Made by a program: the position numbers and the translations under genes. DNA of 40,704 nt. Origin: Alistipes sp. Lineage in GTDB: Bacteria; Bacteroidota; Bacteroidia; Bacteroidales; Rikenellaceae. The stretch's first letter is position 1, and every line of letters begins with the position of its first letter. The notes under the pieces are model-generated. The model worked only from the letters and a program-made list of their open reading frames with translations, had not been told where the DNA came from and searched no databases. The stretch spans positions 1 to 40,704 of the forward strand of contig JAGBCX010000028.1 of the NCBI GenBank assembly GCA_017937805.1, given 5' to 3'. Shown here one piece after another: positions 4,951-17,503 of this stretch.

Positions 4951-6216
4951 ATGAAAAAAGTAGATGTAATTCTCGGTCTCCAATGGGGTGACGAGGGTAA
5001 AGGCAAGGTTGTCGATGTATTGACTCCTAATTATCAGGCTGTTGCTCGTTTTCAGGGCGGTCCAAACGCAGGTCACTCACTGAAATTCGAGGGCAAAAGT
5101 TTTGTTTTGCATACCGTTCCATCGGGTATTTTCCGTGACGGCTCAATCAACATTATCGGTAATGGTGTGGTAATTGACCCCGTAATTCTCGCAGAGGAGG
5201 TTGCCGATATCGAGAAGATGGGCGTTGATGTAACCGAGCGTATGGTTATCTCGAAGCGTGCTCACCTTATTCTTCCAACCCACCGTATGCTCGATGCTGC
5301 GAGTGAGGCAGCAAAGGGCAAGACCAAGATTGGCTCGACATTGAAGGGTATCGGTCCTACTTACATGGATAAGACAGGTCGTAACGGCTTGCGTGTAGGC
5401 GATATTTTGATGCCTGACTTCGAGGAGCGTTACAACCGCTTGAAGGCAAAACACGAGGAGATGCTTCGCCAATATGCATACTCTTACGACATCACCGCGT
5501 ACGAGCAGGAGTGGTTCAAGGGTATTGATGTTATCCGCAAATTCAACCTCGTAGATAGCGAGCAGATGGTAAATGAGGCGCTCAAAAACGACACTGCTGT
5601 TTTGGCAGAGGGTGCGCAGGGTTCGTTGCTTGATATCGACTTCGGAACATACCCTTATGTAACATCTTCAAACACGCTCTGCTCGGGCGTATGTAGCGGT
5701 TTGGGCGTTGCTCCAACCCGCATCGGTAATGTATATGGTATCTTCAAGGCTTACTGCACACGCGTAGGTAGCGGTCCGTTCCCAACAGAGTTGTTCGACA
5801 CTACGGGCGAGACTTTGCGCCAGATTGGTAACGAGTTCGGTGCTACAACAGGTCGTCCTCGCCGTTGCGGTTGGTTGGACTTGGTAGCGTTGAAATATAC
5901 CGTGATGATGAACGGTGTAACCGAGTTGATTATGATGAAGAGCGATGTTTTGAATGAGTTTGCTACTATCAAAGTCGCTGTTGGTTACGAGTTGGACGGC
6001 AAGCAGTTGGACTACTTCCCATACGAGTGCACAGACGACATCGTACCTATCTACAAGGAGTTCAAGGGTTGGAACTGCGACATCTGCAATGTCCGCAACT
6101 ATGAGGATTTCCCTGCTGAGTTCAAGGAGTATGTAGAGTTTATCGAGAAGGAGACAGGCGTGCCTGTAAAGATTATCTCGGTAGGTCCGGACCGTGCTGA
6201 GACAATTGTACGATAA
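4951..6216 (+). CDS. purA: Adenylosuccinate synthetase
   Basis: A 421-aa protein of normal family length. It joins IMP and aspartate, using GTP, to make adenylosuccinate, the first step from IMP to AMP. The signature N-terminus (LGLQWGDEGKGKVVD) holds the P-loop and catalytic Asp. The catalytic His region is PNAGHS, and GPTYMDKTGRNGLRVGD, TGRPRRCGWLDL and the GPDR of the guanine-binding tail are present. Cytoplasmic. It is followed 33 bp later by purT on the same strand, so the two are probably co-transcribed. Start ATG at 4951 fits the family. Confidence 0.97.
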   Translation: MKKVDVILGLQWGDEGKGKVVDVLTPNYQAVARFQGGPNAGHSLKFEGKSFVLHTVPSGIFRDGSINIIGNGVVIDPVILAEEVADIEKMGVDVTERMVISKRAHLILPTHRMLDAASEAAKGKTKIGSTLKGIGPTYMDKTGRNGLRVGDILMPDFEERYNRLKAKHEEMLRQYAYSYDITAYEQEWFKGIDVIRKFNLVDSEQMVNEALKNDTAVLAEGAQGSLLDIDFGTYPYVTSSNTLCSGVCSGLGVAPTRIGNVYGIFKAYCTRVGSGPFPTELFDTTGETLRQIGNEFGATTGRPRRCGWLDLVALKYTVMMNGVTELIMMKSDVLNEFATIKVAVGYELDGKQLDYFPYECTDDIVPIYKEFKGWNCDICNVRNYEDFPAEFKEYVEFIEKETGVPVKIISVGPDRAETIVR

Positions 6217-6249
6217 GAAAACCGAAAACCTTAAAAACATTTCGACAAA

Positions 6250-7437
6250 ATGAAGATTGGAACTCCGCTTACGAAAGTGGCAAAAAAAGCGCTCTTGTGT
6301 GGCTCGGGAGAGTTGGGCAAGGAGGTCGCACTCGAACTGCAACGATTTGGCGTAGAGGTTATCGCCCTCGACCGCTATGAGAATGCACCTGCTATGCAGG
6401 TGGCACATCGTAGTTACGTACTCTCGATGCTTGACGGAGAGCGTTTGCGCAAAATTATCGAAACGGAGAAGCCAGATATTATTATTCCTGAGGTGGAGGC
6501 TATTGCAACACCGGTGCTTGTAGAGCTCGAAAAAGAGGGCTACAAGGTTGCTCCAACCGCAAATGCAGTGTGGCTTACGATGAACCGCGAGGGTATTCGC
6601 CGTTTGGCTGCCGAGGAGTGTGGCTTGAAGACCGCAAACTATCGTTTTGCCGACACTCGCGAGGAGTTTGAACAGGCTGTGACAGAGATTGGTATCCCTT
6701 GCGTTGTAAAGCCGATTATGAGTTCGTCAGGACATGGTCAATCGACCATCAAATGCGAGGCTGATATCGATAAAGCGTGGAAAATTGCGCAGGAGGGTGG
6801 TCGTGCAGGAGCAGGTCGTGTAATTGTGGAGAGTTTTGTCAATTTTGACTATGAAATTACACTTCTGACAGTGCGTCATATTGGCGGTACTACGCTGTTG
6901 GAGCCTATTGGTCATCATCAGGTTGATGGCGACTATCGTGAGTCATGGCAACCACAACCAATGAGCGAAAAAGCATATGCAAAAGCACATGAGGTGGCGC
7001 GCACAATTACCGATGCCTTAGGTGGTTACGGAATCTTTGGTGTCGAGATGTTTATCAAGGGTGACGAGGTTATTTTCAGTGAAGTTTCGCCACGCCCACA
7101 CGACACCGGAATGGTAACGATGGCATCGCAGGATTTGTCTGAATTTGCACTCCACGCTCGTGCGGTACTCGGTTTGCCAATACCGTCTGTTCGCTTTATT
7201 GCTCCGAGTGCATCGAAGGCGATTGTTGTGGAGGGCGACACCGACAAAGTAGAGTTCGAGAATATCGAAAAAGTCCTCGAAGAGGAGGGCGTTCAGATTA
7301 GACTCTTCGGAAAGCCGGAGGTTGTTGGACATCGCCGCTTCGGAGTTATTTTGGCTACGGGGGTGTCAGTTGAAGATGCTTTGGCAAAGGCTGAAAGGGC
7401 ATACGCAAAACTCGGAGTGAAGATTTTACCGAGATAA
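6250..7437 (+). CDS. purT: Formate-dependent GAR transformylase PurT
   Basis: A 395-aa ATP-grasp enzyme that makes formyl-GAR from GAR, formate and ATP, an alternative to folate-dependent PurN in purine synthesis. The N-terminus [29 protein letters not shown] is the PurT nucleotide/GAR-binding start. The ATP-grasp core shows [14 protein letters not shown] and [27 protein letters not shown]. It forms a short purine unit with purA. Its use ties purine synthesis to free formate, which is common in anaerobes. Confidence 0.96.
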
Positions 7438-7679: not shown

Positions 7680-7704
7680 TTAAGTAGGGCATAAAGTGGA
7701 TTGT

Positions 7705-8979
7705 ATGAACGGTAAGTTGCTGATAAAGAGTGGAACTATCGTTGCCGATGGAAAAATATGGAACGGAGATATCCTTGTCGCTGACGGAAAAATCGAGGCG
7801 ATAGGGGAGTCATTGTCGGCCGATGCGCAGACCGAAATATTTGATGCAGAGGGGTGTATCGTGACCTATGGTTTGGCAGATGTTCATGTTCATTTGCGAG
7901 AACCCGGCTACTCTGCGAAGGAGACTATCGCTACGGGAACTCGCGCTGCCGCACACGGCGGAGTAACAACGGTCTGCTCGATGCCTAACCTTCAACCGGC
8001 ACCCGATGCACCGGAAACTATCGCTGTTCAGCAACAGATGATTGACGAGCAGGCTGTGATTGAGGTGCGACCTTTTGCAACAATATCGAAAGGTCGTGCA
8101 AGACGGGAGTTGGCAGAGATTGAGGCTCTGCGCCCATTGTCGGTTGGCTATTCCGATGATGGCAACGGCATTCAGACTGAGGAGTTGATGCGTGAGGCGA
8201 TGCAACGAATTGCAGCGGTAGATGGTATTATTGCAGCGCATTGCGAAGATGACTCGTTGTTACACGCAGGATATATCCACGATGGTGAATATGCTCATGC
8301 TCACGGCCATAAGGGTATTTGCTCGGAGAGTGAGTGGGGGCCTATCAAGCGAGATGTGAAACTCGCTGAGGAGGAGAAGTGCCGCTATCATGTTTGCCAT
8401 ATTTCGACCAAGGAAAGTGTAGCCATTATCCGTGAAGCAAAGCAACACTGCGACCATATTTCGTGCGAAACAGCACCACACTACCTTGTTTTGTGCGACC
8501 AAAACCTCAAAGAGGAGGGACGTTTTAAGATGAATCCGCCATTGCGAGCAGCGGAGGATAGAGCAGCACTTATTGAGGGTATTCAAGATGGAACGATAGA
8601 GGTTATTGCCACTGACCATGCACCACACACTGCTGAGGAGAAGTCGCGTGGCTTGAAGGGTAGTGCAATGGGTATTGTGGGTATCGAAACCTCATTTGCG
8701 ATATGCTATACGCACCTTGTACGCAAGGGTGTTATTACGATTGAAAAACTTATTGCACTGATGTCCGAAAATCCTCGCCGTATATTCCGCTTGGGCGGAG
8801 CATTAAAAGTTGGCGAGAGGGCAGACATCGCAGTTTATGATATTACAAAGCCTTATACAATTGACACTAACGAGTTTTTGTCAATGGGAAAGGCAACGCC
8901 ATTTGAAGGCGAGGAGGTCTACGGACGATGCGTGCTGACACTCTTCAATGGCGAGAAGGTTTGGAGTGAAAACAAATAA
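7705..8979 (+). CDS. pyrC: Dihydroorotase (class I)
   Basis: A zinc amidohydrolase that closes carbamoyl-aspartate to dihydroorotate. From the ATG at 7705 it has 424 aa; an in-frame GTG at 7696 would add three residues. Seen in order: DVHVHLREPG (metal-binding HxH), GGVTTVCSMPN, GYSDDG, IAAHCED, the His of CHIS, and ATDHAPHT with the catalytic Asp. It is the first gene of the pyr operon, 25 nt after the U-tract of the attenuator. carA starts 18 bp downstream. Confidence 0.95.
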   Translation: MNGKLLIKSGTIVADGKIWNGDILVADGKIEAIGESLSADAQTEIFDAEGCIVTYGLADVHVHLREPGYSAKETIATGTRAAAHGGVTTVCSMPNLQPAPDAPETIAVQQQMIDEQAVIEVRPFATISKGRARRELAEIEALRPLSVGYSDDGNGIQTEELMREAMQRIAAVDGIIAAHCEDDSLLHAGYIHDGEYAHAHGHKGICSESEWGPIKRDVKLAEEEKCRYHVCHISTKESVAIIREAKQHCDHISCETAPHYLVLCDQNLKEEGRFKMNPPLRAAEDRAALIEGIQDGTIEVIATDHAPHTAEEKSRGLKGSAMGIVGIETSFAICYTHLVRKGVITIEKLIALMSENPRRIFRLGGALKVGERADIAVYDITKPYTIDTNEFLSMGKATPFEGEEVYGRCVLTLFNGEKVWSENK

Positions 8980-8997
8980 CAACAAAATATAGAACAG

Positions 8998-10089
8998 ATG
9001 AAACAACCCGACAAAAAATTAGTTTTGGAGAGCGGTCAGGAGTTCTTGGGTTACGGTTTCGGTGCAGACACAAATGCAGTGTGCGAAATCGTATTCAATA
9101 CCTCGATGGCCGGCTATCAGGAGATTTTATCAAATCCTGCCTGTACTAATCAGATTGTTGTGATGACCTATCCGACAATCGGTAACTATGGTATTACAGA
9201 CGAGGATTTTGAGGCGAGAAACCTCACAATCGGAGGCTTGGTGGTACGTGAGGAGTGCAAGACACCGAGCAACTTCCGATACACAAAGACTATCTCGGAG
9301 CTGATGGAGGAGAGTGATATTCCGGGCATTAGTGGGGTAGATACCCGCATGCTTACGCGCATTATCCGCGATTCGAAGAGTTGTCGTGCAGCAATCGTTT
9401 CGGCAGAGATGTCGAAAGAGGAGGCTTTGGCACTTATCGCCGCTACTCCTGAGGAGCACAACGCTGTGGAGCGAGTAAGTTGCAAGAAGCGTTGGTATTC
9501 GCGCACACCTAACCACCGCTTTGATGTGGTTTTGGTTGATTGCGGCGCGAAGTTGAACTTGGTGAGAATGTTGAATAAGCGAGGTTGCAATGTTGTGATT
9601 GTACCATTCAACACCTCAATAGAGGAGATTTTGGCGTTCAATCCGCACGGTATTCTTGTATCGAATGGTCCGGGTGCGCCGGCAGATGTGCCTGCTGTTG
9701 TAGAGTTGATTAAGCAGTTGCGTGGTAAGATGCCTATCTTCGGAGTCGGACTTGGTCATCAACTTATCGCCTTGGCGTATGGTGCAGAGGTGTCGCAGAT
9801 TGAGGGCGTACATCGTGGAGGAGGTCACCCTGTACGCAACTTGGAGAGTGGAAAAATTGAGATTACAGCGCAAGGCTCACTCTACTTTATAGATGAGAAA
9901 TCATTGAGCGCAACCCCACTTAAAGTTACCCATCGCAGCGTAATTAACGACACGATAGAGGGTATCGAGAGCAAGGAGGAGAGCGTATTCTCGGTACAAT
10001 ACAATCCGGAGTCGGCTCCGGGAGCGCAAGACAGCGCATATCTTTTCGATAAATTCATTAAATTGATGGAGGAGAATCACAATGCCTAA
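8998..10089 (+). CDS. carA: Carbamoyl-phosphate synthase small subunit, glutaminase residues missing
   Basis: A 363-aa protein aligning by eye with CarA along its length: an N-terminal CarA-specific domain ([25 protein letters not shown]) and a class I glutamine amidotransferase domain. In active CarA the nucleophile motif is GICLGHQ. Here it reads GVGLGHQ, with Gly251 (codon GGA, 9748-9750) in place of the Cys. The catalytic His of GHPE is also changed: QYNPES has Asn336 (AAT, 10003-10005), while the Glu stays (338). The GHHGGNHPV loop reads [10 protein letters not shown]. Glutamine hydrolysis should therefore be impossible. The protein probably serves as a structural or regulatory partner of CarB working on free ammonia. 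It overlaps carB by 8 bp. Confidence 0.93.
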
Positions 10090-13000
10090 GAGAACAGATA
10101 TAAAGAAGGTTATGGTTATCGGCTCTGGTCCAATCGTTATTGGTCAGGCTGCCGAGTTCGACTATGCAGGCACACAGGCTTGTCTTGCACTCAAAGAGGA
10201 GGGTTATGAGGTTATCCTCGTAAATTCAAACCCTGCAACCATTATGACCGACACATTTATTGCGGATAAGGTCTATATGGAGCCTTTAAAGTTGGAGTAT
10301 GTCGCAAAGATTATTCGCTACGAGCGACCAGATGCTATCGTTCCCGGTTTGGGAGGTCAAACAGGTCTGAACCTTGCCGTACAACTCGCCAAGAAGGGCG
10401 TTTTGGAGGAGTGTGGTGTTGAGATTCTCGGAACATCGTTCGAGAGTATCGAGCAGGCAGAGGATAGAGAGTTGTTCAAAGAGTTGTGTATCTCGCTCGG
10501 AGAGCCCGTATTGCCATCGGAGGTTGTAAATACCATCGAGGAGGCTGTCGAGGTTGCCAAGGAGATTGGTTATCCGTTGGTACTTCGCCCTGCATTTACA
10601 CTCGGAGGTACGGGTGGTGGCTTCGTGGATAACGAGGCAGAGTTGCGTGAGTTGATGCGTAACGCTTTGGCTCTCTCACCGGTACATCAGGTGTTGGTAG
10701 AGAAGAGTATCAAGGGCTACAAGGAGATTGAGTACGAGGTAATGCGTGATAAGAACGACACCGCAATTACCATCTGTAATATGGAAAATGTGGACCCTGT
10801 GGGTGTACATACGGGCGACTCTATCGTAGTTGCTCCGTGCCAAACCTTGACCGACAAGGAGGCTCAGATGCTCCGTACCAGCGCATTGAAGATTATTCGT
10901 GCATTGAAGATTGAGGGTGGTTGTAACGTTCAGTTTGCATTGGACCCACTCTCGTTCAACTACTATATTATCGAGGTTAATCCACGAGTTTCACGCTCTT
11001 CGGCTTTGGCATCGAAGGCGAGTGGTTTCCCTATCGCTCGTGTAACAGCAAAGGTTGCTGTGGGTATGACTCTCGACGAGATTATGCTCTCGAATGGTCC
11101 TGCTTGCTCGGAGCCTGCATTGGACTATATCGTAACAAAGATTGCTCGTTTCCCATTCGACAAGTTCAGCGAGGCATCGAACGAACTCGGAACGCAGATG
11201 AAGGCTACGGGCGAGGTTATGAGCATCGGTCGTACCATCGAGGAGAGTTTGTTGAAAGCAGTTCGCTCGCTCGAAACGGGTGTTTGCCACATCTACCACA
11301 AGAAGTTTGATGATATGGCAACTGCTGATATGTTGCAATATATCACTCGTGCTACCGATGACCGCATCTACGCTATTGCAGAGTTGTTGCGCCGAGGAGT
11401 AGACCGTTCGTTGATTTACGACCGCACAAAGATTGATATGTTCTTCTTGAAGAAGATGGATAATATCGTAAACTTCGAGCGCGAGGTTAAGGCTCATAAG
11501 GGCGACAGAGAGGTCCTCTACGAGGCAAAGCGTATCGGCTTTGGCGATAAGTTTATCGGACAGTTGTGGGGTATGACCGAATCGGAGGTGTTCGAGTTGC
11601 GTCAGGAGTTGGGCATTAAGCCTATATATAAGACTATCGACACCTGCGCAGGCGAGTACTCGGGTTATGTACCATACTTCTATTCGACCTACGAGCAGGA
11701 GAATGAGTCGGTGGTTAGCGACCGCAAGAAGATTGTTGTACTCGGTTCGGGTCCTATCCGTATTGGTCAGGGCGTTGAGTTCGACTATTCAACCGTTCAC
11801 TCGATTTGGGCTATCCGCGAGGCAGGATATGAGGCGATTATCATCAACAACAACCCTGAGACAGTTTCGACCGACTTTACCATTTCGGATAAGTTGTATT
11901 TCGAGCCGCTTACTGTGGAGAATGTGATGAACATTATCCGTATGGAGCAACCTGACGGCGTTATCGTGACGCTTGGCGGTCAGACCGCTATCAACCTTGC
12001 TAAACCACTCTCGAAGATGGGTGTAAAGGTTGTAGGAACGGGTATTGAGGCTATCGATAACGCAGAGGATAGAAAGCTCTTCGAGGCAATTATGCGCAAG
12101 GTTGGTATTCCTCAGCCAAAGGCAAAGGCTGTAACCGATATTGAGGAGGGTGTTGCTGCCGCTGCAGAGATTGGCTACCCTGTATTGGTGCGCCCAAGCT
12201 TTGTGTTGGGTGGCCGTGCAATGCAGATTGTTGGTAATGAGCAGGCTTTGCGCCACTACTTGCACAATGCGGTAGAGGTTTCGGAGGATTCACCGGTATT
12301 GGTCGATAAATATATTATGGGTAAGGAGGCAGAGGTTGATGCCATCTGCGATGCCGAGGGAAATGTCTTTATTCCGGGTATTATGGAGCATGTCGAGCAT
12401 ACGGGAGTTCACTCGGGCGACTCGATTAGTGTCTATCCATCGTTCTCGTTGAGCGACAAGGTTAAGGAGAAGATGATTGACTACACCGTACGCCTTGGTC
12501 GCGCAATTGGCATTGTGGGTCTTTACAATATACAGTTTATTGTTGATTCGGAGGAGAAGGTTTATGTGATTGAGGTAAATCCTCGTTCATCGCGTACCGT
12601 TCCGTTCCTCTCGAAGTCTACAAATGTACCAATGGCGAAGATTGCAACCCGAGTAATGTTGGGCGAGACGTTGCCGCAGCAGGGTATAACAGAGGTCTAT
12701 GGCAAGGAGCGCAAGCGTCACTTCGTGAAGGCTCCTGCGTTCTCGTTTGCCAAGATTAAGGGTGTAGATTCGTATCTCTCGCCTGAAATGAAATCTACGG
12801 GCGAGGCTATCGGATATGACGATTCGCTTACTCGTGCATTGTACAAGTCGTTGCAGGCTTCGGGTATGACTATCGTAAATTACGGTACTATCTTCGCAAC
12901 CATTGCCGACAAGGACAAGGAGGCTGCTTTGCCATTGATTCGCCGCTTCTACAACCTCGGTTTCAATATCGAGGCTACGGCAGGTACAGCATCGTTCCTT

Positions 13001-13279
13001 CGTGAGCATGGTATTCGCACACGATTATTGCGCAAAATCAGCGATGGTAGCGATGATATTATAAAGAGTCTTTCGAAGGGACATGTAAGTTATGTAATCA
13101 ACACTATTGATGTAAATCAGCACAATACACGCCTTGACGGCTACGATATTCGTAACGCTGCGGTAGAGAACAATGTGTCGATTATCACCGCGCTCGAAAC
13201 CGTAAGTGCATTGCTTGATGTATTGGAGGAGATTACTCTCGGAGTTTCGACCATTGATGCCGAGTATAGAGCAAAATAG
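10082..13279 (+). CDS. carB: Carbamoyl-phosphate synthase large subunit
   Basis: A 1065-aa protein of full family length. Two homologous ATP-grasp halves follow each other: the carboxyphosphate half starts [23 protein letters not shown], and the carbamate half starts [23 protein letters not shown] near residue 555. Both carry the LGGQT loops, and TLGGTGGGF and [10 protein letters not shown]. The last 130 residues are the MGS-like allosteric domain. It uses two ATP, bicarbonate and ammonia to make carbamoyl phosphate for PyrB. Since its partner CarA lacks glutaminase residues, the ammonia is probably taken from solution. The start overlaps carA, suggesting coupled translation. Confidence 0.97.
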
Positions 13280-13289
13280 AGTATAAAAG

Positions 13290-14027
13290 ATGCAGAGAGT
13301 TATATTAACCGTAACAAAGAACGAGGCTCTGACACCTCTTATCTACAAGATGCAACTTGCAGGTGATGTGTCGGGCGTTACTCGTGCCGGACAGTTTGTC
13401 GAGATTGCGCTCGATGGCTTGTATCTGCGCCGACCAATCTCGGTCTGCAACTACGATGAGGGCGAACTCACTATTATATATAAAGTAGTGGGCAAAGGCA
13501 CCGACTTGATGTCGCAAATGGCAGAGGGTACGCAGTTAGATGTACTTACAGGCTTGGGTAATGGCTTCGATACGGAGCATGAGTGCAACAAACCGCTGCT
13601 TGTAGGCGGTGGAGTAGGTGTGCCGCCATTGTATCGTTTGACACGCGATTTGATTGCACAAGGCAAGGAGGTGACCGTAGTACTTGGCTTCAATACCGAG
13701 TCGGAGATTTTCTATGCCGAGGAGTTCGAGGCGTTGGGTGCTAAGGTTATTCTTGCTACGGCTGATGGTTCGGTGGGCGTAAAGGGCTTTGTTACAGATG
13801 CAATTCGAGAAAGAAGGGTAGAGGCAGACTACTTCTATTCGTGCGGTCCATTGCCGATGTTGAAGGCGTTGTGCAACTCACTTGAAATCAGTGGAGAGGT
13901 GTCACTCGAAGAGCGTATGGGTTGCGGTTTTGGTATCTGCATGGGTTGTTCTATTCATACAACAAAGGGGGCAAAGCGCGTCTGCAAGGATGGCCCCGTA
14001 TTTAAGAAGGAGGAGGTAATATGGTAA
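13290..14027 (+). CDS. pyrK: Dihydroorotate dehydrogenase electron-transfer subunit
   Basis: A 245-aa FAD and [2Fe-2S] protein that passes electrons from PyrD to NAD+ in class 1B dihydroorotate dehydrogenase. The ferredoxin-reductase-like part has the FAD motif RRPISVCNY (about residues 48-56) and the nucleotide-binding GGGVGVPPLYRL. The C-terminal cluster motif is CGFGICMGC with a further Cys in RVCKDGPVF. It starts 10 bp after carB and overlaps pyrD by 7 bp (ATGGTAA). Confidence 0.95.
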   Translation: MQRVILTVTKNEALTPLIYKMQLAGDVSGVTRAGQFVEIALDGLYLRRPISVCNYDEGELTIIYKVVGKGTDLMSQMAEGTQLDVLTGLGNGFDTEHECNKPLLVGGGVGVPPLYRLTRDLIAQGKEVTVVLGFNTESEIFYAEEFEALGAKVILATADGSVGVKGFVTDAIRERRVEADYFYSCGPLPMLKALCNSLEISGEVSLEERMGCGFGICMGCSIHTTKGAKRVCKDGPVFKKEEVIW

Positions 14028-14935
14028 GAGATTTATCTGTTGAGTTGTGCGGTGTTGCACTCGACAACCCCGTAATTCCTGCCAGCGGAACATTCGGTTT
14101 CGGCAAGGAGATGGCAGAGGTGTACGATATCAATATTCTCGGCTCTATCTCGTTCAAGGGAACAACTCGCGATGCACGCTTTGGAAACCCTACACCTCGT
14201 ATTGCCGAGTGCCCAAGCGGACTTATCAACTCGGTAGGTCTGCAAAATCCGGGTGTTGATGCAGTTATTGCACACGAACTGCCCGAACTCCGCAAGATTT
14301 TCCGCAAGCCGATTATCGCAAATATTAGCGGTTTTTCAATTGAGGAGTATGTGGAGTGCTGCTCGAAGTTGGATAAGGAGGAGCAAGTGGCAATTTTGGA
14401 GGTCAATATCTCGTGCCCGAATGTGCATAATGGAGGTATGGCGTTTGGAACATCGCCCGAATCGGCAGCGGCTGTAACTCGCGCAGTTAAGGCGGTTACC
14501 ACAAAGCCCGTATTTATCAAACTCTCGCCCAATGTAACCGATATTGTCGCTATCGCAAAGGCATGCGAAGAGGCTGGTGCTGATGGTATTACGCTCATCA
14601 ACACAATGCTTGGTATGCGTATCGATATCGCTCGCAGAAAGCCCGTAATTGCCAATAAAATGGGCGGTTTCTCGGGTGCAGCAATATTCCCGATAGCGGT
14701 ACGAATGGTCTATCAGGTGGCTCACGCTGTTAAGATTCCTGTTATCGGCTGTGGTGGTGTGGCTACGGCGGAAGATGTTGTGGAGATGATGATGGCAGGT
14801 GCTACGGGCGTTCAGGTGGGTGCCGAGAATTTGCGTAACCCTTACGCCTGCAAGGAGATTATCGAGGAGTTACCGTATGTTATGGAGCGACTCGGCATCG
14901 AGAAATTAAGTGATATAATTGGAATAATTGAGTAA
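14021..14935 (+). CDS. pyrD: Dihydroorotate dehydrogenase, class 1B catalytic subunit
   Basis: A 304-aa FMN TIM-barrel enzyme oxidising dihydroorotate to orotate. The class 1B active-site Cys is in NISCPNVHNGG. FMN-binding phrases include ASGTFGFG, FIKLSPNVTDI, GFSGAAIFPIAVRMV, GCGGVATAEDV and GATGVQVG. It partners PyrK and so depends on NAD+, fitting an anaerobe that cannot use quinone-linked PyrD with oxygen respiration. Followed 13 bp later by pyrF. Confidence 0.96.
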   Translation: MVRDLSVELCGVALDNPVIPASGTFGFGKEMAEVYDINILGSISFKGTTRDARFGNPTPRIAECPSGLINSVGLQNPGVDAVIAHELPELRKIFRKPIIANISGFSIEEYVECCSKLDKEEQVAILEVNISCPNVHNGGMAFGTSPESAAAVTRAVKAVTTKPVFIKLSPNVTDIVAIAKACEEAGADGITLINTMLGMRIDIARRKPVIANKMGGFSGAAIFPIAVRMVYQVAHAVKIPVIGCGGVATAEDVVEMMMAGATGVQVGAENLRNPYACKEIIEELPYVMERLGIEKLSDIIGIIE

Positions 14936-14948
14936 AACATAATAAGTT

Positions 14949-15650
14949 ATGGCAAAAGATGTAATTATTGCGTGCGATTTCAGCAGCAAGGAGCAGACGC
15001 TCTCGTTCTTGGATAAGTTTACAGGTCGTAAGCCTTTTGTAAAGATTGGTATGGAGTTGTTCTATGCCGAAGGACCTGCTATTGTGCGCGAGATTAAGGC
15101 TCGCGGGCACAAGATTTTCCTCGATTTGAAGTTGCACGACATTCCAAACACCGTGCGCAAGGCGATGAGCGTACTCTCGCGCCTTGATGTCGATATGTGT
15201 AATGTTCACGCTGCGGGAACTGTTGATATGATGCGTGCAGGCTTGGAGGGTTTGACACGTGAGGACGGAACTCGCCCGTTACTGATTGCCGTAACTCAAC
15301 TCACCTCGACCAGCGAGGAGCGTATGCAGAAGGAGTTGCTTATTGATGCAACAATCAACGACTGCATCGCAAAGTATGCCGAGAATGCAAAGGAGGCAGG
15401 TCTTGATGGTGTGGTTTGCTCGCCACTCGAAGCATCGCTCGTAAAGGAGCACTGCGGAAAGGAGTTCTTCACAATCACTCCGGGTGTGCGCTTTGCTGAT
15501 AGTTCTAAGGACGACCAAGTGCGCATTATGACTCCTGCACAGGCTCGCGAGATTGGCTCGGACTATATCGTAGTAGGTCGCCCTATCACCGCAGCCGAAA
15601 ACCCTGTGGCTGCATACGAGCGTTGCTGCAAAGAGTTCTTAAATGAGTAA
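14949..15650 (+). CDS. pyrF: Orotidine 5'-phosphate decarboxylase (type 1)
   Basis: A 233-aa TIM-barrel decarboxylase converting OMP to UMP. The catalytic Lys-Asp network is in [13 protein letters not shown]; the phosphate-gripping end is TPGVRF and [10 protein letters not shown]. Length and motif place it in the short type 1 group typical of Firmicutes and Proteobacteria rather than the longer type 2 form. It lies between pyrD and pyrE with gaps of 13 and 22 bp. Confidence 0.95.
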
Positions 15651-15672: not shown

Positions 15673-16302
15673 ATGGAGAAGAAGATTGCAAAAGAGTTAC
15701 TTTCGATTAACGCAGTATTTTTGCGCCCTGAGCAGCCTTTTACTTGGGCAAGCGGCATTAAGAGCCCAATTTATTGCGACAACCGCCTTATTTTGACTGC
15801 ACCGCGTGTTCGTGAGCAGGTGGAGGCAGGTTTGGCAGAGTTGGTGAAGAAACATTTTCCTGAGTGCGAGGTGTTGATGGGAACTTCGACCGCTGGTATT
15901 GCTCACGCTGCTATTGTGGCTACAATTCTCGATTTGCCAATGGGATATGTTCGTAGTGGTGCGAAGGACCACGGTCGCACAAATCGCATTGAGGGTAAGT
16001 TGGAGAAGGGCCAGAAGGTTGTTGTTGTCGAGGATTTGATTTCGACCGGTGGCTCATGCATCGAGGTTGTCGATGCCTTGCGTGAGGCAGGAGCAGATGT
16101 TTTGGGTATCGTGAGCATCTTCACCTACGGCATGAAACGTGGTGTGGAGCGCATCGCCGAGGCTAATACCGTAAACTACTCTCTCTCAAATCTCGATGCA
16201 CTCGTAGAGGTGGCTGCTGAGGAGGGATATATCGCTCCTGAGTGGAAAGAGCGCATCCTCGCATTCCGCAATAACCCAAGCGACGAGAGTTGGATTAAAT
16301 AA
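15673..16302 (+). CDS. pyrE: Orotate phosphoribosyltransferase
   Basis: A 209-aa type I phosphoribosyltransferase joining orotate and PRPP to form OMP, just before PyrF. The PRPP loop is [13 protein letters not shown] (about residues 116-128). The flexible catalytic loop region is [33 protein letters not shown] is the family N-terminal signature. A 124-bp spacer with repeat RX separates it from pyrB. Confidence 0.95.
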
Positions 16303-16426: not shown

Positions 16427-17503
16427 ATGAGACATTTGACTGACCCTACGGATTTAACCCGCAAAGAGACCGATGATATTGTCGCTCTGGCACTCGATAT
16501 TATAGCAAACCGTCAGAAATATAGCGAGGTTTGCAAAGGCAAGAAGTTGGCGACACTCTTCTACGAGCCTTCAACCCGTACCCGTTTGAGCTTTACCGCT
16601 GCAATGATGGAGTTGGGCGGTAATGTACTCGGCTTTTCCGATGCAAACTCTTCGTCAGTGAGCAAGGGCGAAACGGTGGAGGATACCGTTCGTGTAGTTG
16701 GTAACTTCGTGGATATTATCGCTATGCGCCACCATATTGAGGGTGCGCCACTCGATGCTTCGATGGTGTCGAAGGTGCCTATCATCAACGCTGGCGATGG
16801 TGCGCATGCTCACCCGACACAGACCTTGACTGACCTCTTGACGATGACTCGTGAGTTGGGACACTTGGACAACCTCACAATCGGCTTCTGTGGCGATTTG
16901 CTCTATGGCCGTACCGTTCATTCGCTTATTAAGGCGATGTCGCGCTACGAGGGGACAAAGTTTGTGCTTATCGCTCCCGATTCGCTTCGTTTGCCTGACT
17001 ATATCAAGCACGATGTGTGCGAGAAGAATGGCATAGAGTATCGTGAGGTATCTTCGCTCGAAGAGGTTATCGGCGAGTTGGATATCCTCTATATGACTCG
17101 TGTTCAGCAGGAGCGTTTCTCGGATAAGGCGGAGTATGAGCGTGTGAAAGATTGCTATATCCTCGATGCCGAGAAGATGGCGTTGGTGAAGGAGAAGATG
17201 GCAGTTTTGCACCCACTCCCGCGTGTGAATGAGATTGCAAAGGAGGTCGATGCCGATCCTCGCGCTGCATATTTCCGTCAGGTGGAGAATGGAAAGTTCG
17301 TGCGTATGGCACTGATGTACACACTATTGAAGTGGAAAGAAGAGGGCGCAGAGCCGTTGCATAACCACGAGGCTGTGGAGGTCGAAGGCTTGGTTTGTCC
17401 GAACAAAAAGTGCATCTGCAACAACGAGCCTGTGGATTATAAGTTCCAACTCTCGGAGGGTGGGGTATATCGTTGCCTCTACTGCTCGACAAAAGCGGAG
17501 TAG
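16427..17503 (+). CDS. pyrB: Aspartate carbamoyltransferase fused to a PyrI-like zinc domain
   Basis: A 358-aa protein. Residues 1 to about 305 are the ATCase catalytic chain, making carbamoyl-aspartate from carbamoyl phosphate and aspartate: [10 protein letters not shown] binds carbamoyl phosphate, [12 protein letters not shown] and MTRVQQERF are also seen. The last 50 residues are extra and carry C324-x4-C329-x20-C350-x2-C353, the spacing of the PyrI zinc domain (C-x4-C-x23-C-x2-C in E. coli) that binds the catalytic chain. The nucleotide-binding allosteric half of PyrI is absent, and no separate pyrI is in the window. The tail may stabilise the holoenzyme without CTP or ATP control. Last pyr gene; strong terminator follows. 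Confidence 0.95.

Follow-up and report, generated by a model that had tools for sequence, protein, structure and literature searches.

The carA and carB genes of the stretch of Alistipes sp. DNA analysed here (40,704 nucleotides, hereafter the window) most probably encode an ammonia-dependent carbamoyl phosphate synthetase that resembles vertebrate CPS I, arose independently of it and keeps CarA as a structural partner; we put the probability of this reading at roughly 0.86. Judged by its sequence, the window CarAB fails the defining glutaminase features of a bacterial CPS II and most likely works like CPS I. In the proposed mechanism the window CarA would no longer be able to hydrolyse glutamine, and free ammonia would enter CarB directly and react with carboxyphosphate to give carbamate, which the second ATP-grasp half of CarB would turn into carbamoyl phosphate for aspartate carbamoyltransferase and UMP synthesis. 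CarA would be retained as a structural partner, possibly stabilising the tunnel or the assembly. The switch to ammonia would have recurred in the genus, which would more widely have given up glutamine as its direct source of nitrogen. The use of ammonia in the cell, a sufficient ammonia supply and the structural role of CarA are all points that we infer, and the affinity for ammonia is the weak point of the proposal.

Glutaminase site of the window CarA

The gene and the altered positions, numbered after E. coli CarA, are as follows.

8998–10089, forward strand: carA, carbamoyl phosphate synthetase small subunit, 363 aa, predicted from its sequence to be glutaminase-dead
9139–9141, forward strand: codon 48, Ala at the position of Ser47, which is invariant in 56/56 Cys-bearing CarAs of the genus
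9748–9750, forward strand: codon 251, GGA (Gly), where E. coli CarA has the catalytic Cys269 (alignment to E. coli)
9874–9879, forward strand: codons 293–294, Gly-Ser at Asn311-His312, both invariant in 56/56 Cys-bearing CarAs of the genus
10003–10005, forward strand: codon 336, AAT (Asn, in QYNPES), where E. coli has the catalytic His353 (alignment)
10009–10011, forward strand: codon 338, Glu, matching Glu355 of the E. coli triad, retained (alignment)

A preliminary description of this DNA had placed Gly at the position of the catalytic Cys and Asn at that of the catalytic His; codons 251 and 336 bear out both, and the Glu of the triad is kept as stated there. The damage, however, is worse than claimed, with Ser47, Asn311 and His312 altered as well; we take these three to be residues of the glutamine pocket, and their invariance was computed in this analysis. 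The protein passes the NCBIfam models NF009475 (402 bits, cut-off 221) and TIGR01368 (398 bits, cut-off 307), and the solved chain that matches it best by sequence is 1a9x_B, E. coli CarA with Asn at position 353. carA and carB overlap by 8 bases, and both reading frames are intact.

Two candidates were discarded for the genome to which the window belongs (a draft of 1.84 Mb in 89 contigs, 85% complete, so that absence is not proof). A second intact carA, which the preliminary description had raised, was looked for and a single copy was found, and no class-I (PF00117) glutaminase domain was found beyond that of CarA.

CarA across the genus

A carA match was obtained in 161 of 180 genomes of the genus, and 156 CarAs were read (G032, G035, G062, G092 and G104 were left out). 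The Cys position is occupied by Cys in 56, Ser in 32, Asp in 32, Gly in 29, Ala in 3, Glu in 2 and Asn in 2; 100 of the 156 are thus Cys-less, with six different residues replacing Cys. In the clade of the window Cys is absent from 14/14 genomes (Gly 12, Glu 2), His is replaced by Asn in 13/13 readable CarAs, and Glu355 is kept in 13/13 readable ones. The 13 nearest CarAs in the genus (80–94% identity to that of the window) all share the loss of Cys. The nearest one with Cys and His within the genus (G159) is 67% identical to the window CarA, and a named locus with Cys (L044, among the best 80 of 505 matches) is 69% identical. His and Glu are present in all 56 Cys-bearing CarAs, and His is still kept by many Cys-less ones. 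The joint loss of Cys and His considered in the preliminary description holds across the window clade, whereas other lineages of the genus lose Cys yet retain His.

CarA remains under purifying selection in both domains. The dN/dS values of the window clade are 0.059 for the N-terminal domain (64 pairs) and 0.085 for the GATase domain (63 pairs), calculated after Nei and Gojobori as a ratio of sums over pairs with dS of 0.05–1.5 only. Five loss clades range from 0.056 to 0.141 and from 0.085 to 0.152, respectively; Cys-bearing rows give 0.146 and 0.177, in a comparison that mixes deeper clades.

These data bear on a sequencing error, a recent mutation or gene decay in a single assembly. The draft state of the genome speaks for such an explanation, but the same loss occurs in 13 more genomes of the clade, the gene is in frame and both of its domains are under purifying selection, and the Cys-less CarAs elsewhere in the genus carry several different residues at that position, which leaves it a negligible probability. 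The view of the preliminary description that carA and carB are in frame, overlapping and not decaying is upheld by the 8-base overlap, the purifying selection and the clade-wide loss. Since the closest relatives lack Cys and His at these sites, the reading as an error or recent mutation, which it had also mentioned, fails; a pseudogene reading of the window carA is likewise refuted by the related genomes.

Erosion of the pocket was compared with that of other invariant GATase sites. In the window clade 5/8 pocket sites are changed vs 14/70 others (uncorrected p 0.018), and pocket-specific erosion reaches an uncorrected p <0.05 in just 2/9 loss groups.

In four genomes (G136, G147, G176 and G178; L396–L399) a second CarA of about 34% identity with Cys, NHGF and HPE is found beside the Cys-less CarA of the operon. 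The extra CarA of G113 is Cys-less and comes from a bin with 8% contamination.

Repeated change and relatives without carA

An RpoB tree (IQ-TREE) of 28 of 30 chosen genomes requires a minimum of six changes in the presence of Cys by parsimony, counted in either direction over 27 rows with G063 excluded. The changes are read as losses because Cys is the state in E. coli and in the loci outside the genus. Separate lines are formed by the Asp clade beside G018 (Cys) and by G023 beside G168 (Cys), further ones by G091/G106 beside G173 (Cys) and by the carA-less G036/G053 beside G133 and G157 (Cys). With 162 rows (137 genus genomes and 25 outside loci), a carB tree gives broadly the same picture. 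On these trees the glutaminase state has switched repeatedly within the genus.

Among the 19 genus genomes without carA, 13 have a carB match. In five of these (G075, G148, G153, G154 and G166) carB is cut by a contig end, and they are uninformative on carA; near-whole carB without carA is observed in eight, four at 76% identity (G036, G053, G112 and G116) and four at 40% (G041, G061, G063 and G065). Absences of carA, like those of PyrG and GlmS reported below, come from draft genomes. In G036, G112 and G116, carB comes immediately after pyrC and ahead of pyrK, pyrD, pyrF, pyrE and pyrB, with no carA match; the shorter locus of G053 reads pyrC, carB, pyrK, pyrD, again with no carA match between pyrC and carB. 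carA was not found elsewhere in the genomes of G036, G053, G112 and G116 either (drafts 92, 85, 81 and 65% complete). A structural role of CarA would fit the purifying selection, and the question of that role is sharpened by these four relatives, which keep the operon carB without carA.

In G041, G061, G063 and G065 (L329, L330, L339 and L340) the carB is divergent (about 40% identity) and the genome has no carA match; no other UMP gene matches were found near it within 14–16 kb.

CarA could alternatively bind glutamine without cleaving it, as a sensor or allosteric partner of CarB. Gly241 and Gly243 are retained in the window clade, as is Gln273 in 13/14 rows, the GATase domain is under purifying selection, and E. 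coli variants of this type have been solved (1a9x_B, 1c30_B). In contrast, Ser47, Asn311 and His312 are altered and carA is dispensed with in the four relatives, and we regard a sensor as improbable. An ammonia-dependent CarAB with a structural CarA remains the preferred reading, and a genus with at least six changes of glutaminase state, up to the absence of carA, would offer a naturally occurring test case for the conversion of a channelled amidotransferase into an ammonia enzyme, with intermediates of that transition still alive.

CarB and the UMP operon

The remaining genes of the operon are as follows.

7696–8979, forward strand: pyrC, dihydroorotase
10082–13279, forward strand: carB, large subunit, with the checked ATP-grasp catalytic residues and the tunnel gate unaltered (NF003671, 1505 bits)
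13290–14027, forward strand: pyrK, dihydroorotate dehydrogenase electron transfer subunit (best match 248 bits, below the model cut-off of 314)
14021–14935, forward strand: pyrD, dihydroorotate dehydrogenase
14949–15650, forward strand: pyrF, orotidine-5'-phosphate decarboxylase
15673–16302, forward strand: pyrE, orotate phosphoribosyltransferase
16427–17503, forward strand: pyrB, aspartate carbamoyltransferase, the consumer of carbamoyl phosphate

In the window purA and purT (4951–7437) lie ahead of pyrC-carA-carB-pyrK-pyrD-pyrF-pyrE-pyrB, and the UMP pathway is complete within one operon. Past the aspartate carbamoyltransferase model, the match to which ends at residue 301, the pyrB product extends by some 55 residues that include Cys pairs; this tail may resemble a fused PyrI zinc domain.

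The window CarB passes two NCBIfam CarB models. Among the CarBs of the loss groups, 79/79 retain all thirteen positions that we take to be catalytic (R129, R169, E215, Q285, E299, N301, R303, R715, E761, Q829, E841, N843 and R845). The tunnel gate (C232, A251 and A314) is unaltered in 78/78 CarBs with a non-Cys CarA row. Thirty-eight CarB columns with a conservation of 97% or higher among 75 Cys rows are altered in at least two loss groups, and no clustering of these recurrently changed columns is observed (3659 of 5000 shuffles were as low). Among the positions inspected, Phe348 is altered in the window-clade rows and in one Ser-clade row set. The comparison within the genus revealed no CarB change that would account for a better affinity for ammonia.

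Comparison with known carbamoyl phosphate synthetases

With E. coli CarAB, a bacterial CPS II, the window CarAB shares the subunits, the sequence families and the catalytic residues of CarB, while the triad and the pocket of the window CarA are broken. It corresponds to a natural variant at both of the positions changed in two E. coli CarA chains, with Asn replacing His353 in 1a9x_B and Ser replacing Cys269 in 1c30_B. Those are single laboratory changes, whereas the window CarA represents a fixed natural state with further changes in the pocket. In E. coli, glutamine hydrolysis depends strictly on Cys269 and His353, and the large subunit can use ammonia to form carbamoyl phosphate, a reaction said to require very high, likely unphysiological concentrations (PMC6245113). 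For GMP synthetases, Km values for ammonium of 4 to 174 mM are given (PMC10526850).

Vertebrate CPS I (CPS1) likewise has a dead but retained ancestral glutaminase domain with Cys replaced (Ser294 in human) and uses ammonia as donor; it requires N-acetylglutamate, serves the urea cycle and is a single protein of 1500 residues (PMC4655335). Unlike CPS1, the window system consists of separate carA and carB genes in a bacterial pyrimidine operon, with repeated changes in the genus. Nor does the window clade show the tunnel block of CPS1, in which Gln stands at E. coli Gly293: Gly293 is kept in 14/14 of its rows. Over the genus, another residue or a gap occupies that position in 64/100 Cys-less rows vs 20/56 Cys rows. 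Frog CPS1 retains the triad, and in human CPS1 ammonia is thought to come in by another entrance (PMC4655335).

In Blochmannia vafer, which has lost glutamine synthetase, direct use of ammonia by carAB has been proposed by the authors; it stands there as a proposal, and a loss of CarA residues is not reported in the passages concerned, whereas in the window CarA the glutaminase residues are gone (PMC3017870). Glutamine is taken as the donor for all bacterial CPSases (PMC6245113), and all CPS types except CPS1 are stated to use it (PMC4655335); the former statement counts against the ammonia reading. A search of the openly licensed literature, mostly at listing level, returned no published Cys-less bacterial CarA or ammonia-type CPS in Alistipes. 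The E. coli large subunit reportedly synthesises carbamoyl phosphate from NH3 in vivo, going by the title of a study by Rubino from 1987 (cited in PMC3017870).

Other glutamine amidotransferases

A wider pattern in PurF, GuaA, PyrG and GlmS had escaped the preliminary description. PurF of the window's genome (L321, G000:C13; also L292) begins with MSVLAVY at the place of EECGVFG in intact relatives and thus has no catalytic Cys; with HVLYTT in place of HVRYST the RYST motif is lost. PurF is without Cys in 19 of the 24 sequences read and in 11/11 from the window clade, and in G091 it keeps Cys but has lost RYST. The PurF of the window-clade genome G079 (L315, G079:C34) groups with the carA-less clade, by transfer or from a mixed bin.

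In the window clade GuaA is represented by an open frame of 439–484 aa in 10/14 genomes, by a partial one in 1, and is unmatched in 3, the genome of the window included; GuaA frames with the usual profile start measure at least 508 aa. The elbow of the GATase domain and the FHPE motif are absent from 29/29 short GuaAs that were read, as exemplified by the collapsed N-terminal glutaminase domain of L266 and related loci (G083:C18:19286–20218). These 29 form one clade very distant from 15 intact GuaAs, while the genomes that carry them belong to several distant lineages in the RpoB tree. This suggests either horizontal spread of the short GuaA or its persistence from an ancient duplicate.

The states of CarA and GuaA were cross-tabulated for 129 of the 156 genomes, those with a scored GuaA; most were scored by open-frame length alone and 44 by reading (G039 is short on reading despite a frame of 513). 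Cys-less CarA coincides with short GuaA in 48 and with intact GuaA in 35 genomes, Cys-bearing CarA with short GuaA in 0 and with intact GuaA in 46, the rows not being independent; short GuaA thus accompanies 0/46 Cys-bearing vs 48/83 Cys-less CarAs. A sign test on the RpoB tree yields 6 independent contrasts for CarA loss and short GuaA, of which 4 or 5 are concordant and none is opposite (median p 0.0625, short of significance). For CarA loss and missing PyrG the same test is concordant in 2 to 4 contrasts (median p 0.25).

The PyrG synthetase domain (PF06418) was not found in 36/180 genomes, among them 14/14 of the window clade, and 7 of 18 PyrGs read have lost Cys, His or both. In these seven (L254, L255, L256 and L402–L405) the catalytic Cys is replaced by Ser, Asn or Gly, or the His by Asn. 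Without PyrG the clade would obtain CTP otherwise, perhaps by salvage, and carbamoyl phosphate synthesis might then be vestigial altogether, with pyrimidines salvaged. The retention of pyrC, carA, carB, pyrK, pyrD, pyrF, pyrE and pyrB side by side and the purifying selection on carA oppose such a scenario, which we consider very unlikely.

GlmS above the cut-off was found in none of the 13 window-clade genomes tested and was not found in 23/30 tested overall; the weak matches in those genomes correspond to PurF and to proteins about 320 aa long. Reverse action of NagB with ammonia might take the place of GlmS.

PurL keeps its catalytic Cys in the genome of the window and in six other genomes of loss lines, with homology confirmed and with a search pattern that itself included the Cys. 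In G033 PurL was found neither by the pattern in its stretch nor by tblastn. Glutamine hydrolysis is hence not absent from the cell, and another enzyme, a glutaminase or deaminase acting in trans, might hand ammonia to CarB in place of the free pool. As no further PF00117 domain was found in the 85% complete genome, the named genes of the operon all belong to the UMP pathway and no new gene separates pyrC from carB in the carB-only operons, a supply in trans also seems very improbable, and free ammonia is retained as the proposed donor.

Taken with the loss in CarA, these observations form a sound argument that part of the genus has retreated from glutamine. We consider it somewhat more likely than not that most amidotransferases of the whole lineage no longer draw their nitrogen directly from glutamine, and that ammonia goes straight into the synthesis of pyrimidines, purines and amino sugars. 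In that case CarA, PurF, GuaA and PyrG would have lost the glutaminase or the gene in parallel in several branches, GlmS would be gone in some, a short GuaA would have spread between lineages, and CarB without CarA would be the end point. With such parallel losses the nitrogen economy of this gut bacterium would have changed throughout. In the Asp-clade genomes (n=32), however, GuaA is intact in 27/27 scored and PyrG is present in 31. Together with the Cys-less CarAs that keep His and the second intact CarA of four genomes, the intact GuaA of the Asp clade stands against a simple reading; the second-CarA genomes and the Asp clade indicate that CarA loss can come first or alone.

Habitat

Gut ammonia is a plausible driver of the loss. 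The named loci are the best 80 of 505 matches and hence a biased sample; by title, the 44 Cys-less ones among them comprise 34 from ruminant gut, 7 'SIG' isolates whose titles give no source and 3 others. Among the 36 Cys-bearing loci of these best 80 matches, no ruminant is mentioned in the titles of six Alistipes or Bacteroidales, and the titles of the Prevotellaceae L044 and L102 name no host. The ruminant gut may favour the loss of Cys without forcing it: within the same best 80 matches, the Paludibacteraceae L068, L077 and L089 keep Cys though they come from roe deer or water buffalo.
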